23,862 nucleotides of DNA from a virus. Location of the stretch: positions 1 through 23,862 of the IMG/VR virus record IMGVR_UViG_3300027836_000041, one strand, 5' to 3'. A program made the translations under genes and the position numbers. The notes beneath the pieces were generated by a model. It searched no databases and had not been told where the DNA came from. It was given only the letters and a program-made list of their open reading frames with translations. Within the stretch, counting starts at the first letter, position 1, and every line of letters starts with the position of its first letter. Of this stretch, positions 1,760 to 10,068 are shown piece after piece.

Positions 1760-2206
1760 TTAGGACAGGTACGCTGTCCCTGAAAATGGCTGAGCCATTG
1801 TCAATGTTAGTCTACTAGTACTATTATAGTCTATGCCTGTTTCAAGCATATCCCCTGAACTTGATTTTACTGAGACATTTGGATTAAATCCCAAATTATG
1901 GTTTATTATTACAGAATAGATACCAGAAACTGGACCAGTTATTTGGCTCATTTCCCATGAATAAGAAAAATTTTCTGGAGCTGTAGCAAGTAATATTACA
2001 CCAGCATTAGACCAGCTTAGGTCTTCTAGCTTTGGACCATAGAATTCTGAAGTAGTAGAATTAAAATAAAAATCTCCAGCTAAACCTAAATTGTTTGCTG
2101 GAGCTGAGCTTCCATTCAAAATAGTTCTTCCTCTTGGGCCTTGTGGTCCAGGAGTTGAAATAATTACTTTGTTTTTTTGCTCTATTACTTTTACTGAATC
2201 AGCCAT
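1760..2206 (-). CDS. Tail fibre protein with short collagen-like segment
   Basis: 148 residues. Residues about 19-26 (PGPQGPRG) are a short collagen-like Gly-X-Y stretch, followed by a knob unit (LNGSSAPANNLGLAGDFYFNSTTSEFYGPK) found in many phage fibre proteins. The C-terminal half (IINHNLGFNPNVSVKSSSGDMLETGIDY) is a beta-rich binding domain. The collagen part probably helps trimerisation of a stalk. The start codon overlaps the last base of the 116-residue gene upstream, so translation is coupled. Confidence 0.75.
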   Translation of the reverse strand: MADSVKVIEQKNKVIISTPGPQGPRGRTILNGSSAPANNLGLAGDFYFNSTTSEFYGPKLEDLSWSNAGVILLATAPENFSYSWEMSQITGPVSGIYSVIINHNLGFNPNVSVKSSSGDMLETGIDYNSTSRLTLTMAQPFSGTAYLS

Positions 2207-2556
2207 TATATAGTCACCGATCTATTAAGAGTCATAAAACCCTCAAGGAGTTTTATTTTATTCCCATTAGAATCGATAACCATAACATCATAAGATGACT
2301 TAGGATAAAAAAGTTTGTTGGTTTGTGTTGGCGTCATGATAATATTCAGTGTGCCATTTGGTCCATCTATTGTTATGCCATTAGATGGTGATGTAAGTGA
2401 TACAGCTAGCTTGCTTCCGCCTTTTGTGTCACGAACCTGCATCTTTACTGATGCGCCAGTAAGATCAATTGGGGTTACTCCATCTTCCTGGGTATACTCT
2501 ACCTGGAATGTGAAAGTAGCATTTTGATCTACTTCAAAGTTTTTTTGTCCTGCCAT
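2206..2556 (-). CDS. Baseplate/tail Ig-fold protein (BppU-N-like)
   Basis: 116 residues, all beta by appearance. It has the pattern FTFQVEYTQEDGVTPIDLTGASVKMQVRD (residues 11-39), typical of the N-terminal domain of baseplate upper proteins and related Ig-like phage tail proteins, where it attaches fibres to the baseplate. That function is family knowledge. It is the first gene of the tail-fibre group in transcription order. A minus-strand AGGAG lies about 10 bases upstream of the ATG, and a strong hairpin separates it from the holin-like gene. Confidence 0.6.
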   Translation of the reverse strand: MAGQKNFEVDQNATFTFQVEYTQEDGVTPIDLTGASVKMQVRDTKGGSKLAVSLTSPSNGITIDGPNGTLNIIMTPTQTNKLFYPKSSYDVMVIDSNGNKIKLLEGFMTLNRSVTI

Positions 2557-2625: not shown

Positions 2626-2868
2626 TTACTTAGATGTAAATCCAAATTCTTTGTTGCTTGGGCTAAGAGCCTTCAAAACTACTGGGGCAATTGCTGCCAC
2701 TCCAGCTGCAATTAAATCTTTAGGATTTGTATTGCCAGTCATATATAGAGCTGTTGCTGCTGCTAGGAATGCTCTTCCGTAAGTGCCAACTGCTGCCAAA
2801 ATTTGTTCTTGCATTGTTACTTTCCCATCTTTATTTAAATCAGCTTTATCAAATTTTTTGATAGCCAT
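2626..2868 (-). CDS. Holin-like small membrane protein with EF-hand loop
   Basis: 80 residues. Residues 10-21 read DLNKDGKVTMQE, a complete canonical EF-hand calcium-binding loop: D at 1, N at 3, D at 5, G at 6, V at 8, E at 12. Two hydrophobic segments follow (about residues 24-43 and 50-67), with a polar Asn/Pro turn between and a charged tail. Two-helix topology and size match r1t-type holins, which make membrane holes that release endolysin; that is inferred. The lysozyme-like gene lies about 2.3 kb away on the other strand, so lysis genes are split. A GAGGAG ribosome site precedes the start. It could instead be a tail-associated membrane protein. Confidence 0.55.
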   Translation of the reverse strand: MAIKKFDKADLNKDGKVTMQEQILAAVGTYGRAFLAAATALYMTGNTNPKDLIAAGVAAIAPVVLKALSPSNKEFGFTSK

Positions 2869-2880
2869 ATTATCATCTCC

Positions 2881-2900
2881 TCGTGGGCGGATTGCCCATG
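2881..2900 (-). other. Short hairpin upstream of the holin-like gene
   Basis: TGGGC / GCCCA inverted repeat with a GGATT loop lies between the reductase stop and the GAGGAG ribosome site of the holin-like gene. It may separate the two messages. There is no T-run, so terminator function is doubtful. Confidence 0.35.
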
Positions 2901-2934: not shown

Positions 2935-4869
2935 TTAGGCAGATATATCTACAAGCTCGCAATTGCCATCTGAGCTACATGCTAATGTAGCATTAATTGA
3001 AGTTCCATCTTCTGTCTCATAAAAAGATAGATCTTCCCATCTAATGCTAGATGGCATCTTGGAAAGAAGTTCGTCATATTCTTCTTTTGAAACTTCCTGG
3101 TACGGAGCCTGCTTGTAAGAGTGATCGGAGTAAGGCAAGAATGAAATACCTGAAACTTCGTCGAAGTGTTTATAAACCCAAGCGCCGACTTCCATCCACT
3201 CGTCTTCTTTTACTGAAACAGTAATGGAGGGCTTATGCTCACACCAAGCTCTTTGATAAACAAGCCATGTGTTTAAATGATCAAGTGCTGTGAGATCACT
3301 TCTAACAATTGCTCCTTCTGGAGCTTTTACTGGAAATGAAAACACATAAGTGTCGTTTGGCTTCATTACATCATCTTCAACTGGAATTCCAACTTCCTTT
3401 AGGAATGTTGAAATTGGATCTCCCTTAGATCCACGAACTGTGCGAATGTAATACGGCGAATGCCAAGGATGCATGCCAGATGAAACTCCAACCAATTGAG
3501 ACACTGTTCCAGAAGGCTTTACACAAGTGATAGCGGCAGACTCCTGAATTCCAATCTTGCCAGCTTCATCTTTATTCATTTCACGAGCATACTCTCTGAG
3601 ACTCATCAAGTAGGCTTCTAGAGAAACCATGTCTTGCTTTCCTGACATAAACTTATGTCCAAATTGGCCAGTAAGTGAAACTCCAAGAAGTCTTTCTTCT
3701 TCAGTATTATCTTTCCAGATTTTTCTAATGTACTTAAAGTCAGTCAATGTTGATTGCCAAGTTCCAAGAATAGTGGCAAGTCTTACCTTGTTTGCAATTG
3801 TTTCTTTTGTGTCATCTTCACGGATAACAACTTCTGATAAGTTGCAAAACTGGTATGGTCGTAAAATAATTTCAGAGCATGGATTGGTTCCATAGTGAAT
3901 CTCTGGATCTCTGCGCCCATACTTTGCTGCCTGTGCTTGTGCTGCGGCAACGTTATAAATTCCACGCTCTCCAGACTTTGAATCGTAAAGATTCTTCCAT
4001 TCTGCAATAAACTGTTCCATCTCTGGTTTACGTGAATACGCAACTGAGTTATTAGACAAAGCTCTCTGCGTATTGTTCTCCCACCAGTTTCCAGATTTAG
4101 CAGAAGCCATTTCAATATCATTAATGTTTGAAAGAGAAATCATTGCTGATCGTCTAACGCCACCAACAACAACTACTTCTCCAATTTTACACATTAGATC
4201 GTGAGCTTCAATTGGCTTAAGTTGTCTTCCAGTTGCAGACTTAAACTTTGCAATAGTAAAGTCAAAAAGGTTGATCAATGGCTGTGGGCCAGAAGATCTA
4301 CCACCCATAGTTTTTAATCTTGCGCCAGCTGGACGAACTTTAGAAACATCAACTGCTGGAATATGTCCAGTCCAAAGAAGTGCAAGAAGTTCACGGTATG
4401 CTTTTGCCCAACCTTGCTTTGAATCTTCAACAACGATAACAGTATCTGATTTTTCAAGTGTTTCTGGGACGGCAGGAAGTTTATTGACATACTTGTATTC
4501 AACAGAGAATCCAACACCAGTACCACACATCAAAATATACATAGTTTCGTCAAATGATCTTGGTGAATCAACTGGTACAAAAGAGCAGTTGTATCCTGCT
4601 ACATTATCTCTTTCTAGTGCTGCTCCAGCAGTCATTACAGAGCGCATTGATGGCATTACATTTCGTTCAAATACACCATTTTTTAATTCCGCAACAAGCT
4701 TATCATCTGGAATGTAATTATTATTTTTCTTAAGGTGTTCCAGCATAAACTCAAAATATCTATCTACTGTTTCACCCCATGTTTCACGACGGTTCTCGTC
4801 AGAGATCCATCTTGCATATCTTGATAGTGCAATAAAGTTTTCATAAGGATTTTCAATAGTATTTTTCAT
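2935..4869 (-). CDS. nrdJ: Adenosylcobalamin-dependent ribonucleotide reductase, class II monomeric type
   Basis: 644 residues. Makes deoxyribonucleotides from ribonucleotides using a B12-derived radical, so it supplies DNA precursors in the host cytoplasm without needing oxygen. Visible motifs: GYNC (Cys95), CGTGVGFSVE (115-124), and TNPCSE (328-333) with active-site Asn329, Cys331 and Glu333. Cys342 follows 11 residues later, the spacing known for the radical/reductant cysteines of the Lactobacillus-type enzyme. KPSGTVSQLVG is the C-terminal phosphate-binding loop. The tail ends CSSDGNC-ELVDISA (Cys631, Cys637), the redox-active pair that re-reduces the site. It is about 95 residues shorter than the 739-residue Lactobacillus enzyme. 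No intein or frameshift is seen. A long AT-rich leader precedes it. Confidence 0.93.
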   Translation of the reverse strand: MKNTIENPYENFIALSRYARWISDENRRETWGETVDRYFEFMLEHLKKNNNYIPDDKLVAELKNGVFERNVMPSMRSVMTAGAALERDNVAGYNCSFVPVDSPRSFDETMYILMCGTGVGFSVEYKYVNKLPAVPETLEKSDTVIVVEDSKQGWAKAYRELLALLWTGHIPAVDVSKVRPAGARLKTMGGRSSGPQPLINLFDFTIAKFKSATGRQLKPIEAHDLMCKIGEVVVVGGVRRSAMISLSNINDIEMASAKSGNWWENNTQRALSNNSVAYSRKPEMEQFIAEWKNLYDSKSGERGIYNVAAAQAQAAKYGRRDPEIHYGTNPCSEIILRPYQFCNLSEVVIREDDTKETIANKVRLATILGTWQSTLTDFKYIRKIWKDNTEEERLLGVSLTGQFGHKFMSGKQDMVSLEAYLMSLREYAREMNKDEAGKIGIQESAAITCVKPSGTVSQLVGVSSGMHPWHSPYYIRTVRGSKGDPISTFLKEVGIPVEDDVMKPNDTYVFSFPVKAPEGAIVRSDLTALDHLNTWLVYQRAWCEHKPSITVSVKEDEWMEVGAWVYKHFDEVSGISFLPYSDHSYKQAPYQEVSKEEYDELLSKMPSSIRWEDLSFYETEDGTSINATLACSSDGNCELVDISA

Positions 4870-5062: not shown

Positions 5063-5090
5063 AGTATACTATTTAGATATTCTTTGTCAA
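5063..5090 (-). promoter_or_regulatory. Sigma70-type promoter for the reductase gene
   Basis: On the minus strand TTGACA (5090-5085), a 16-bp spacer and TATACT (5068-5063). The start point would be near 5056. It is divergent from the lysozyme promoter, with the two -35 boxes 14 bp apart. Confidence 0.6.
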
Positions 5091-5104
5091 CAAGAAAAAA
5101 TCAT

Positions 5105-5134
5105 TTGACATGGACTTTAATCAAATGGTATGAT
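5105..5134 (+). promoter_or_regulatory. Sigma70-type promoter for the lysozyme-like gene
   Basis: TTGACA, an 18-bp spacer and TATGAT. The start point would be near 5141, which gives a leader of about 27 bases to the chosen ATG. The location rules out the longer reading frame that begins at 5084. Confidence 0.65.
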
Positions 5135-5167
5135 TGTAGTTCGCTATCTCTAGAGGAGGAAATGCCA

Positions 5168-5716
5168 ATGGAGAATATAAAGAAAAGTTTGAGCGATATT
5201 GTTCATCAATATGCTGCGATTGCAATTACAGTAATGTTTTTGTTTTCCAACACAGTTAATGCAATACCTGCACAAGCTCTAATAGTAAAACCAAAGACAG
5301 AAGTACAACTTAAGAAAGAAACCTTAGTGAAGTACAGCAATACTGTTTACAAGCCTTCTCAGGCTCTGTCAGATGAAGATTTAAAAGATCTTCTTTGGGC
5401 AGCAGGTTTTGAAGGAAAAGCCCTTAAAACGGCTTGGGCCATTGCTAAGAGGGAGTCCAACGGACGACCAATGGCATATAATGGCAACAGGAAAACTGGA
5501 GACAGTTCCTATGGAATTTTTCAGATCAACATGTTGGGTAATCTCGGCGATGTTCGTAAAGAAAAATTTAATTTAAAGTCAAACGTACTATTATTTGACC
5601 CAACTATAAATGCAGAGATAGCGTATTACATGACTAATGGCGGAACCAATTGGTCAGCTTGGAAGGGTTTAACCCCAAGAGCAAAGGAATTTTATTTGAA
5701 ATTCCCAAATAAGTAG
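5168..5716 (+). CDS. Exported lysozyme / transglycosylase-like endolysin
   Basis: 182 residues from the chosen start. GAGGAGG at 5153-5159 is best spaced for ATG 5168; ATG 5162 is too close. An N-terminal hydrophobic segment (about 14-30) ending near NAIPAQA looks like a signal peptide with a possible cut after residue 37. Residues 85-170 resemble the SLT/goose-lysozyme fold: TAWAIAKRESNG with likely catalytic Glu96, then SYGIFQIN (115-121), and the closing helix DPTINAEIAYYMT. It should cleave peptidoglycan outside the membrane during lysis or entry. First gene of a plus-strand operon, with the next gene 12 bases away. Confidence 0.8.
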   Translation: MENIKKSLSDIVHQYAAIAITVMFLFSNTVNAIPAQALIVKPKTEVQLKKETLVKYSNTVYKPSQALSDEDLKDLLWAAGFEGKALKTAWAIAKRESNGRPMAYNGNRKTGDSSYGIFQINMLGNLGDVRKEKFNLKSNVLLFDPTINAEIAYYMTNGGTNWSAWKGLTPRAKEFYLKFPNK

Positions 5717-6527: not shown

Positions 6528-6668
6528 ATGGTTCATCATTTTGCTAAGTGGATGGCTAGTCCACAGTTTAGTCACCCTCAGATATGTAATGACAACTGCA
6601 ATAAAGAACACGAAAAAGGAAAAAAATCATTTTTTAAAAAAATTATAAAAAGGGTAGGTAAAAAATAA
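6528..6668 (+). CDS. 46-residue basic micro-protein
   Basis: Starts MVHHFAKWMASPQFSHPQIC and ends in a Lys-rich tail (KSFFKKIIKRVGKK). It has two Cys five residues apart. No ribosome site precedes it and its ATG is close behind a -10 box, so it is probably translated from a leaderless message. Its TAA shares a base with the ATG of the oxygenase that follows, suggesting it couples translation of that gene. Could bind membrane or nucleic acid; unknown. Confidence 0.55.
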   Translation: MVHHFAKWMASPQFSHPQICNDNCNKEHEKGKKSFFKKIIKRVGKK

Positions 6669-7510
6669 TGTTTTACGACAGAGAAGATTGCACTAAATTA
6701 TCATTTTTTCCAGATGAGTATGGAACCCCTAGCGGCGTGTTTTTATTTAAGGGTTTTTACACAGATGAAGAGTGCAAGATTGTTGAAGATGCAATGGCTG
6801 AAGAAGACACAAGAAACCATGTTTATGAAGAAACACTAATCAGCTGGTACTCAGAAAAGCTTAGCCCAATGATTGAGGGTCTACATGACCTGTGGGAAAA
6901 GGCTAGTGAGATGCTTTACCCAGAATATGTAATCCATCCACAAAATAACGTTTTAGTCTTAAGGCCATACATGAACGAAGGAATGTTTATTCATTCAGAT
7001 TCTCCAGGAAAAGGAGAGTGTCATAGACTTTCACAGGTTGATGTTTGGCAGACTTGTTGCGAGCTAGATTATGGTCTAGTTGCTTACTTTGGAGAATTTG
7101 AAGGCGGAGAAATTTTTTATCCAAATATCCAAGCTGATGGTACTAAAAAGGATCCAGCAGTAGATTGCGAAATACTTTCTTTCAAGCCAGAAAGAGGAGA
7201 TCTTGTAGTTCATGGCGCCTTTGGTCCACATGCACATGGAGTCAGACCAGTAACTAGTGGCAATAGATATGCTTTTTCAAACTTTGTTCTTAAGGCAATT
7301 GATAACCCAGGAACATTTCACAATTACAAGACTCCAGAATACTATGAGCAGATTGGCGACGCATCGATGGAGAGACTAATGAATGTATGGATGTTGCCAT
7401 TACAGCAGAATCCACAGTTTACCCATGAGCGCATAAAGATGTATCAGGAGTCTGGCCTAGAAGGCGAAGCTCTTTCAGATAAGTTTATGGCTGAATTTAA
7501 AGAACACTAA
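6668..7510 (+). CDS. 2-oxoglutarate/Fe(II) oxygenase, prolyl-4-hydroxylase type
   Basis: 280 residues. The double-stranded beta-helix core shows the iron triad His109-x-Asp111 (FIHSD) and His190 (HAHGV), with Arg200 (NRYAF) for 2-oxoglutarate binding. FEGGEIFYP (144-152) and FKPERGDLVVHG are the usual strands of the P4Hc fold. Such enzymes hydroxylate proteins, sugars or bases; the substrate is not visible. The C-terminal about 70 residues are helical. Coupled to the micro-protein upstream by a TAATG overlap. One of four oxygenase-like genes in 3.4 kb. Confidence 0.88.
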   Translation: MFYDREDCTKLSFFPDEYGTPSGVFLFKGFYTDEECKIVEDAMAEEDTRNHVYEETLISWYSEKLSPMIEGLHDLWEKASEMLYPEYVIHPQNNVLVLRPYMNEGMFIHSDSPGKGECHRLSQVDVWQTCCELDYGLVAYFGEFEGGEIFYPNIQADGTKKDPAVDCEILSFKPERGDLVVHGAFGPHAHGVRPVTSGNRYAFSNFVLKAIDNPGTFHNYKTPEYYEQIGDASMERLMNVWMLPLQQNPQFTHERIKMYQESGLEGEALSDKFMAEFKEH

Positions 7511-7976: not shown

Positions 7977-8054
7977 TTATTTAATGTCATTCCAGAATGC
8001 AATTACAAGAACTAATATTGGTCCAAATATAACTGATGCCTGTATCCAATTCAT
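7977..8054 (-). CDS. 25-residue membrane micropeptide
   Basis: MNWIQ then about 15 hydrophobic residues (ASVIFGPILVLVIAF) and WNDIK. Its ATG shares a base with the TAA of the cupin/oxygenase gene upstream, so it can be made by translational coupling. Too short for homology evidence; the membrane helix and the coupling are what support it. Confidence 0.45.
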   Translation of the reverse strand: MNWIQASVIFGPILVLVIAFWNDIK

Positions 8055-8686
8055 TAGTATATAAACTTCTTTTCTTCCAGCCCTTTTTCAAGATTTTTTA
8101 GAACATTATCTCTTTGGTTTTTTAGGTCTAAATCTTTGGGTATTTGTACATACGGCAAATTCATAAATATCAATGAGCCTCTTTCGCTACGAGGAGTTGT
8201 TTCATGTAAAGTCCAGCCTCTCATATAAAGTAGATCTCCTGGCTCTAAAGTAATCCTGTGCTCTGTTTTTGTTTCATCAAATGGGTCTATTAGCAACCAG
8301 TCCACATTCCCAAAACAATTTATATGAACAACATCTGATTGATCATTATGCAGAGTTGCGTGAACTCTATCTGCAAAGGTGCTGCCAGTCTGCATTAGAC
8401 TTAAATAGTATGTATCAGTATTTCCGTAAAGCTTAGATAAGTCTTTAACAACTCCAGACCACCCAGGAAAATAATTTAAATCGTCATCTGCAATGTCTTC
8501 TCTTGTATTTCTTCTGCAAGATTCTTCAAAGCTTGCGGCATCTTGTCCTTTTTCTCTGTGGTAGTAATTAGAGTACTTTAAGAAATCTTCAGGACCGTAT
8601 TTAAAATCAACAGAATTTTTTAATACTGAGAATGGCAAGTCCTGCATTTTAGCCTCTAGTATGTGCTTTACTATTTTGTTTACCAT
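8054..8686 (-). CDS. JmjC/cupin-like 2-oxoglutarate oxygenase
   Basis: 210 residues. The C-terminal half is a cupin barrel with His113-x-Asp115 (LHNDQ) and His161 (TLHET) as an HxD...H iron triad, and the conserved LEPGDLLYMRGWTLHET turn. This layout fits JmjC-like protein or amino-acid hydroxylases. The N-terminal about 90 residues are helical. The substrate is unknown. ATG is 6 bp behind TATAAT with no ribosome site, so the message is probably leaderless; the promoter sits at the end of the upstream oxygenase gene. Second of three adjacent oxygenase-like genes. Confidence 0.75.
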   Translation of the reverse strand: MVNKIVKHILEAKMQDLPFSVLKNSVDFKYGPEDFLKYSNYYHREKGQDAASFEESCRRNTREDIADDDLNYFPGWSGVVKDLSKLYGNTDTYYLSLMQTGSTFADRVHATLHNDQSDVVHINCFGNVDWLLIDPFDETKTEHRITLEPGDLLYMRGWTLHETTPRSERGSLIFMNLPYVQIPKDLDLKNQRDNVLKNLEKGLEEKKFIY

Positions 8687-8701
8687 AGTTATATTATACC
8701 C

Positions 8702-9289
8702 CTAATCAGTTTTGTCTTTAAAATATTGAAATATAAATGTAGCTCTAGGCTCAAAAACATTGACTTCATGAAATACGCCTTCTGGTATATAAACCAAATC
8801 CCCTGGTTCTAATACTATCGATTTAAATTCTTTGGAGTCTTTATCTTTAAAGAATTTGTATTCTACCCTGCCTAATACATTCCAAGATATAACATCATGA
8901 TCGTCTGAATGAACCCAATACTCAGATTCGTTTCCTACAAGATTTATTATGCATTTGCCACCAGGAGTTTCCGATTGAAAAACTTTGTTTAGTTCTTTGA
9001 TCACTAAATCAGATTCTGGAATAAGTCCTCCATGATGATACCCATCTTCTTTTTTTGTTATAGCATGAAAAGAAACAATGTCAAATTTATTAAAAACTAT
9101 AATTGCTGTTTTAACGCCATCTTTTCTAGTAACCACTCTAGATTCTTCTCCCAGAGAAGACTCACTATTGTGATAGGCATGATTTAAGCTTAAAATTATT
9201 TTTTCCCATGTTGGTGTTTCTGGGTAATAGTTTTTAATTATGGCATAGGTATTATTTTTTTTAGCTTCTCTTAATACCAAGCTAATCAT
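8702..9289 (-). CDS. Cupin/JmjC-like oxygenase
   Basis: 195 residues from the chosen ATG at 9289, which overlaps the stop of the preceding gene as ATGA. The frame is open back to 9346, but that start lies inside the upstream gene. A cupin barrel shows His127-x-Asp129 (WVHSDD) and His174 (GVFHEV), plus LEPGDLVYIPEGVFHEV, closely matching the neighbouring 210-residue protein. It probably binds Fe(II) and may use 2-oxoglutarate. The two are likely paralogs. Confidence 0.72.
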   Translation of the reverse strand: MISLVLREAKKNNTYAIIKNYYPETPTWEKIILSLNHAYHNSESSLGEESRVVTRKDGVKTAIIVFNKFDIVSFHAITKKEDGYHHGGLIPESDLVIKELNKVFQSETPGGKCIINLVGNESEYWVHSDDHDVISWNVLGRVEYKFFKDKDSKEFKSIVLEPGDLVYIPEGVFHEVNVFEPRATFIFQYFKDKTD

Positions 9290-10068
9290 TGAGGCTCTCC
9301 AGGTGCTCCACAATAAGCTAAAAAGTTTTCCTGTGTATCTGCCCATTTTCTTAAACGCTCATTTGCAATTACTGGAGCTAAGGCATCAAAGTGAAAGTCG
9401 CCATCTTCTGACATTTTACCGTTTTGGATAAGCTGAAGATCTTGCTCATATGCTGGATGCCTAAAGTTTTCATAAAAATCTTTGTCTATAAGATACCTTT
9501 GATCAATGTTTGCTTGAGAAGAGTATCTTATTCCAGACTTTACTTTTTTTACTCCATGAATTACTTCTGGTGTATGTATTAGTAAGTCTCCAGCGCATGG
9601 CTTATACTCTATTTCGTATTCTGGATATACCAGCTCACCACCCTCAAAATCATCATTGTAGTATATCAATGTTGAAAATGTAGAGTATCCAAAATCTACT
9701 GTTTCTCCAGGATGATCTGGGCCAACGACACCCATAATCATTCTATTTTGCCATCCATAAATGTCAGCGTGTGGAGCCATACCCATTTCTTCTTTGAATG
9801 TTCTTACAAACTCAAAGTCTTGTATTGAAGGCGCTTTGTCAAAACCAGTGCTTAATTTTTCAGAAAGTTTTGAAAGTCTTTCAAGCTTTGTCTTGTCACG
9901 ATACTCCCACTCATTGAGCAAAGCTTCTTCTATGATTTCCCTGCATTCTTCTTTAGATATAAAATTTCTCCATATCCAAACTTCAGGAGCTAGCTGTTCA
10001 AATTTATCGTTTGGAGTGTACGCCGCATATTTCTGCAAAATAGTTTCATTAATATCGTGTTTTCTCAT
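9286..10068 (-). CDS. 2-oxoglutarate/Fe(II) oxygenase, prolyl-4-hydroxylase type
   Basis: 260 residues. Iron triad His100-x-Asp102 (MAPHADIYG) and His171 (VIHGV) with Arg181 (GIRYSS) for 2-oxoglutarate. FEGGELVYPEYEIEYKPCAGDLLIH is the typical P4Hc core. The first 30 residues precede the FISKEEC helix that opens this fold. Substrate unknown. Start is preceded by TATAAT exactly 6 bp upstream, with TGA making an extended -10, so the message is probably leaderless; the promoter abuts the tRNA-Ile 3' end. Couples to the next oxygenase through a 4-base overlap. Confidence 0.87.
   Translation of the reverse strand: MRKHDINETILQKYAAYTPNDKFEQLAPEVWIWRNFISKEECREIIEEALLNEWEYRDKTKLERLSKLSEKLSTGFDKAPSIQDFEFVRTFKEEMGMAPHADIYGWQNRMIMGVVGPDHPGETVDFGYSTFSTLIYYNDDFEGGELVYPEYEIEYKPCAGDLLIHTPEVIHGVKKVKSGIRYSSQANIDQRYLIDKDFYENFRHPAYEQDLQLIQNGKMSEDGDFHFDALAPVIANERLRKWADTQENFLAYCGAPGEPQ

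Follow-up and report, generated by a model that had tools for sequence, protein, structure and literature searches.

The stretch of virus DNA analysed here, hereafter called the window, comprises positions 1 to 23,862 of IMG/VR record IMGVR_UViG_3300027836_000041. The following genes and features are relevant for the small membrane protein that is the subject of this analysis:

2206 to 2556, minus strand: gene matching phrog_1084 (E = 5.1e-23), directly downstream of the gene for the 80-residue protein and at the start of the tail gene block
2626 to 2868, minus strand: gene for an 80-residue, loop-bearing, holin-like membrane protein with two predicted helices (open reading frame with ATG start, gene context, AlphaFold2 model)
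2665 to 2724, minus strand: helix 2, residues 49-68, second transmembrane segment (TM2; predicted by AlphaFold2, hydrophobicity)
2740 to 2814, minus strand: helix 1, residues 19-43, the exit helix of the loop continuous with the first transmembrane segment (TM1; predicted by AlphaFold2)
2806 to 2841, minus strand: 12-residue EF-type loop, residues 10-21, DLNKDGKVTMQE (EF-hand_5 match below cut-off, conservation)
2877 to 2882, minus strand: ribosome-binding site GAGGAG, located 8 bases upstream of the ATG (seen directly in the sequence)
2935 to 4869, minus strand: ribonucleotide reductase gene, directly upstream (66% identical to reductases from Streptomyces phages, Yaboi among them)
5084 to 5716, plus strand: gene for a lysozyme-like SLT_3 protein (PF18896, E = 2.6e-15) with an N-terminal, export-like hydrophobic segment recognized by eye

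The host is probably a member of the Actinobacteria, because the nearest reductases belong to actinobacterial phages. A GGAG motif was also seen upstream of most relatives of the 80-residue protein for which the upstream stretch was inspected. In the AlphaFold2 model, which was built on a 49-row alignment (mean pLDDT 70, pTM 0.47), residues 1-8 have a pLDDT under 50, no helix entering the loop is predicted, and the helix of residues 19-43 starts inside the loop, at loop position 10, and runs unbroken through TM1. The most hydrophobic 19-residue segment, sampled in 3-residue steps, was 52-70 (mean 1.87); the hydrophobicity of helix 1, which contains the invariant R32, is low (19-residue means up to 1.06). 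The protein is thus what is expected of a holin in being small and having at least one membrane helix (80 aa, predicted helices, modest hydrophobicity). Its charge amounts to +1 to +2 at the N-terminus, 0 in the hairpin and +2 at the C-terminus, a weak bias that hints at a cytoplasmic location of both termini. Core residues that are invariant in a 50-row alignment are R32, Y42, G45, P49, P62 and F75-G76. Within the helix hairpin (2665-2810), ALYMTGNTNPKDL weakly resembles the TGvTEP stretch in solved structures of PTS EIIC (5iws, 6bvg; E around 0.0014), which probably reflects shared composition or convergence.

Residues 10-21 read D-L-N-K-D-G-K-V-T-M-Q-E, a 12-residue loop with ligands at positions 1, 3, 5, 9 and 12 and Gly at position 6, in which D1, N3, D5, G6, V8, T9 and E12 agree with the canonical EF-hand loop. 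The strict loop pattern occurs once in the window, compared to 0.03 occurrences expected from residue shuffles (stop-to-stop frames of at least 30 aa), and when the 80-aa protein is shuffled 200,000 times it arises in 4 cases; these shuffles, together with the conservation described below, rule out a chance loop. The Pfam model EF-hand_5 matched with E = 5.5e-5, but its 22.9 bits fall short of the gathering cut-off of 25.9, while Dockerin_1 scored 13.0 bits against a cut-off of 22.9, and matches to the profiles of dockerins and EF-hand proteins among solved chains were weak and non-significant (E 0.13-1.9, and 0.13-1.7 for the dockerins). The full PROSITE pattern PS00018, which we take to require a hydrophobic residue at position 13, has no match in the window, because position 13 is Gln; in the relatives listed it is Q, K or E, and never hydrophobic (130 of 130). 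The first-pass annotation had reported a canonical EF-hand loop at residues 10-21 that directly precedes two membrane helices. The loop itself was confirmed and two helices are indeed predicted, but the first of these begins inside the loop. Since the predicted helix does so and continues through TM1, the protein has just the exit half of an EF-hand. As modelled, the element is not a full EF-hand but a loop plus exit helix, dockerin-like, that caps TM1. Dockerins are likewise organised as a loop plus exit helix, and the loops of dockerins and EF-hands share the ligand set D-x-N-x-D-G-x-V-T-x-x-E. In contrast to type I dockerins, with their two repeats, the 80-residue protein has a single loop, and it further differs from both in its non-hydrophobic position 13 and in the direct fusion of the loop to a predicted transmembrane helix. 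A lone EF loop is usually a weak binder. The loop is nevertheless likely to bind a divalent ion.

Relatives were collected by six scans of IMG/VR viral contigs with different queries, each of which contributed the best 80 of 483 to 545 confirmed relatives. Two of these scans were queried with C-terminal pieces alone and were unable to favour the loop, because the queries lacked it. Together with the window and phage DSL-LC01, the scans gave 477 stretches, with many contigs repeated, which collapsed into 198 distinct nucleotide sequences. The window protein by itself has at least 518 matching stretches in IMG/VR. A search for family members in bacterial genomes returned 468 pattern-matching stretches, none of which was confirmed.

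Among the 198 listed sequences, 131 have a gene context of the window type (reductase upstream and/or phrog_1084 downstream): the ribonucleotide reductase was found in 129, phrog_1084 in 129 and both in 127, the phrog_1084 match lying at a median of 74 nt downstream of the family gene. An intact loop is present in 127 of these 131 distinct sequences and in none of the 67 listed from other contexts. In 62 of these 67 the family gene adjoins an endolysin gene, always on the same strand: in 50 this is a CHAP gene immediately upstream of it, and in 12 a VanY gene immediately downstream. Taken from close to where helix 1 begins or from the end of the family gene, the distances range from -16 to 80 nt to the CHAP match and from -49 to 267 nt to the VanY match, and the median is -13 in either case. 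All twelve VanY cases match the L125 reference, and Pfam searches with one representative each gave E = 1.2e-7 for CHAP and E = 1.3e-8 for VanY. The five sequences outside the CHAP and VanY rules are L111, L117, L136, L162 and L081, the last of which has a CHAP gene annotated as endolysin 1.4 kb downstream. No CHAP or VanY gene was found near any of the 131 genes in the window-type context within the flanking stretches examined. Thus, loop-free relatives are mostly located beside a CHAP or VanY endolysin, whereas loop-bearing genes are located between reductase and tail genes.

The loop-free relatives, all from phage contigs, share the two-helix core and show 37-57% identity to the window protein (15 aligned, from outside its context). 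They differ in having no N-terminal loop, and most of their start codons align at about loop position 11. One of them is encoded by the Actinomycetia phage DSL-LC01 (OQ999401) and is 50% identical to the window protein. DSL-LC01 is a lake phage whose Actinomycetia host was predicted by its authors, and their paper names holins for two other phages (PMC10611076).

Since earlier counts had defined family members by the loop motif, conservation of the loop could have been an artefact of selection. This was rejected by a rescan with C-terminal pieces and classification by gene context, which left the result unchanged and brought to light two more lineages without the loop. At a fixed distance from TM1, and with no motif required, D1, D5 and G6 are each found in 127 of the 130 relatives listed; position 3 is N or D in 126 of them, and 129 have E12. 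Parsimony counts on 126 sequences, chosen as intact (L039 dropped; the four loop-less sequences lie outside the count), gave 50 synonymous and 2 replacement changes for loop positions 1, 3, 5, 6 and 12, compared to 53 and 24 for the other seven loop positions and 894 and 168 for the next 56 codons. The difference between ligand/Gly and other loop positions is significant (Fisher p = 9e-5), as is that between ligand/Gly positions and the rest (p = 0.016). The two replacements at ligand positions, N to D at 3 and D to N at 5, co-occur in one relative (L110, DLDKNGKVTEME) and both yield allowed ligands. The D/N/D/G/E positions, whose conservation in homologs had been proposed as a check, are therefore the most constrained part of the loop, the opposite of the unconserved loop residues that the first-pass annotation had named as a refutation. 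The loop begins exactly 31 residues ahead of the motif at the end of TM1 in all 127 loop-bearing relatives listed, while the peptides preceding the loop vary (19 different ones, 3-14 aa, with start codons chosen by rule). The fixed spacing, the variable leader and the ligand constraint together point to selection on the loop and on its coupling to TM1.

The four sequences (of 131) that have the same context and no intact loop represent three lineages. In L137, which is found in 11 stretches, several of them repeats, the loop is shortened; in L357 it is degraded, with K at position 3; and in L378/L380 it is absent, with MN[TS]YTEQ in its place and the gene context kept. A tree was built from the helix region alone, without L039 because of an ambiguous base and with L136 chosen as the root; in it, the 130 tips with the reductase context group into a single clade (local support 0.96 for protein, 0.62 for DNA). 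On the protein tree, the cheapest history is a single gain of the loop at the base of this clade with three later losses. The DNA tree needs just three changes and leaves the state at the clade base ambiguous, which means that L137 may have split off before the loop was gained. Because four of 131 same-context relatives manage without an intact loop, the loop seems to be an accessory module and not something that the core function requires.

An ATG or GTG codon is present at loop position 10 or 11 in all 127 loop-bearing relatives listed (Met 19 in the window, 2812-2814). Such an internal start, near the starts of the loop-free relatives, could give rise to a loop-free short form, but this idea was unsupported, since the predicted pairing with the 16S tail is weak: it averages -5.0 kcal/mol before the internal start, compared to -6.6 kcal/mol in random synonymous versions, although one unrelated internal Met is preceded by weaker pairing still (+0.7).

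A lysis role of the window protein is likely, and the evidence for it comes mainly from its relatives. No holin profile matched the window protein at E ≤ 1 in Pfam, PHROGs or NCBIfam, nor its relatives (seven searched in Pfam and PHROGs, three in NCBIfam). Pfam includes a model for r1t-type holins. No model of these three libraries identifies the protein outside the loop, so that, the loop aside, this is a widespread family of small proteins without a family match in the curated libraries tried. A Foldseek search against BFVD returned as its top match an entry that carries the database name Holin (E = 0.013, probability 1.00, 37% identity), and no match at E ≤ 0.001. Besides the endolysin neighbours of the loop-free relatives, gene order in the cultured Streptomyces phage Yaboi is informative: a glycosyltransferase and a reductase are directly followed by a gene annotated as endolysin, which occupies the slot of the family gene. 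The Yaboi glycosyltransferase is 45% identical to that of the loop-bearing relative L110. As the window has no glycosyltransferase beside its reductase, the synteny with Yaboi runs through the window's relatives. A transglycosylase shared with Yaboi was also considered and proved not to be homologous (BLASTP E = 1.5), though glycosyltransferase and reductase are. The first-pass annotation had called the protein holin-like; this is supported indirectly by endolysin neighbours (62 of 67), the Yaboi slot and the weak fold matches named Holin, and not by any holin profile. Its statement that it knew of no described calcium-gated holin agrees with the titles and abstract openings listed by searches of open-licence literature on holins and calcium or EF-hands: most of these belonged to papers on endolysins and other phage topics or to unrelated reviews, and none describes a calcium-regulated holin. 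Its observation is thus confirmed and its interpretation partly supported, with calcium gating a suggestion drawn from the loop.

Eight large loop-bearing contigs (109-120 kb) were available for a wider view of the lysis genes. Each of them has one copy of the family gene and an SLT_3 lysozyme-like gene. Six encode a CHAP protein elsewhere; in the other two no CHAP match was found at E ≤ 0.01, and Amidase_2 and VanY were not found in any of the eight. The CHAP protein of L479, the sole one compared, shares 50% identity with the CHAP endolysin found in the loop-free relatives. By eye, no obvious holin is encoded beside CHAP in L478 and L479, two of four CHAP regions from the large contigs (L478-L481; open reading frames of at least 55 aa). 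A hydrophobic antisense frame in L478 (2301-2468) was taken as spurious, as it overlaps annotated-looking genes on the opposite strand. The SLT_3 gene of the window is divergent from the reductase gene, and it was detected in 93 distinct same-context relatives, each time on the opposite strand. Its product is a candidate exported lysin, possibly a second lysin.

On this basis we tentatively propose, at somewhat less than an even chance, a small two-helix (class II-like) lysis membrane protein in which a divalent-ion loop caps TM1 and ion binding modulates triggering. In one clade, the N-terminus carries one EF-type calcium loop, for which TM1 itself is the predicted exit helix, and both ends of the protein are presumably in the cytoplasm. 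The loop would bind Ca2+ or another divalent ion, binding would fold and cap the start of TM1, and ion levels at the membrane could then alter the ease of clustering and of lysis triggering. Because a conserved calcium-type loop sits at the start of TM1, calcium may help set the moment at which the cell bursts. Taken on its own, a change of triggering upon binding comes close to an even chance, and is somewhat more probable if the lysis role and ion binding both hold. In a stronger version, a calcium-triggered holin, the loop would be empty at low cytoplasmic calcium until a first small leak admits calcium; the loops of neighbouring molecules would then fill, capping and aligning the TM1 helices, and lysis would become abrupt and self-reinforcing. 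This version we consider unlikely. If true, it would mean that lysis is timed by ion entry and not by membrane potential alone, and that loop-less lineages would use a calcium-independent trigger.

A somewhat unlikely alternative is that the loop of this lysis membrane protein is permanently filled with Ca2+ or Mg2+ and stabilises helix 1 without any sensing. The rigid 31-residue spacing and the continuous predicted exit helix would suit such a static metal site, the constraint on the ligands would look identical for a structural site, and the absence of the loop from L378/L380 in the same context suits a replaceable stabiliser; yet loop-free relatives presumably fold and function without such a cap.

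Quite unlikely, too, is a protein that makes no hole and tunes lysis by another membrane protein, as an antiholin or holin partner. The nearest described analogue found is LysF1a of Mycobacterium F1 phages, a lysis-cassette protein of 77-88 aa with two TMDs and an N-in-C-in prediction, whose deletion delays lysis triggering and whose recovery mutants include D9A near the N-terminus (PMC13056207). Its authors dispute a type II holin role, and regard the data as no more than partly consistent with a pure antiholin (PMC13056207). The window protein resembles LysF1a in size and in its two TMDs, predicted here and with a weak charge bias as regards topology, and a change at the N-terminus is among the LysF1a lysis-recovery mutants; as to differences, the words calcium and EF-hand are absent from the main text of PMC13056207. 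In keeping with an antiholin or holin partner, a second membrane protein, which could be the holin instead, is encoded within 600 nt of the family gene in 38 of the 62 endolysin-linked relatives listed. Against it, a partner was not found in the eight large loop-bearing contigs (a search without a positive control), and tblastn of three family members against 50,697 records of a phage collection matched DSL-LC01 only, with no mycobacteriophage and no sequence relation to LysF1a found from this side. The protein might be an antiholin or another regulator of lysis. As a representative of the second hydrophobic proteins, that of L114 (2879-3268) has two helices by eye, has no Pfam match at E ≤ 0.01 and is a possible holin partner. 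It is very unlikely that the protein is associated with the virion or tail, or is an early membrane protein whose gene accompanies those of the tail, because, although the loop-bearing genes are located between the reductase and the closely spaced phrog_1084 and tail genes, homologues elsewhere adjoin an endolysin and Yaboi has its endolysin after the reductase.

With the pinholin S21 of phage 21, the proposed ion-modulated lysis protein has its size and two helices in common (S21 is also mentioned in PMC13056207), and an export-like lysin candidate, SLT_3, is encoded near the window protein too. In other literature, the words calcium and EF-hand are absent from the main text of a Gordonia lysis-cassette paper (PMC9671378), and the word holin from a freshwater phage survey (PMC6802176).

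To our knowledge, S21 has no metal loop. How phages time lysis has long been debated, and the triggers known so far mainly involve membrane potential and the clustering of holins. A lineage-specific, selected loop of ion-binding type, welded to TM1 of a protein with relatives in lysis cassettes, offers a compact system for asking whether a divalent ion sets the lysis clock, and natural forms with and without the loop are available, such as the window type versus L378/L380.

Two further observations concern the loop codons and other genes of the window. At loop codons 6-7 (2821-2826, Gly-Lys) the synonymous choices are coupled: GGA-AAG was found in 58 and GGG-AAA in 56 of 126 sequences, while the mixed forms GGG-AAG (2) and GGA-AAA (1) are rare. 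This coupling is the strongest of 189 neighbouring codon pairs and involves five coordinated double switches on the tree. As codon 3 changes on four of the branches on which codon 6 does, the coupling probably reflects recombination of two haplotypes, with a constraint at the RNA level as a possible alternative. Further along the window, the genes at 6668-7510 (plus strand), 8054-9346 (minus strand) and 9286-10068 (minus strand) look, by reading their sequences, like 2-oxoglutarate/iron oxygenases, and several such genes seem many for one 24-kb stretch.
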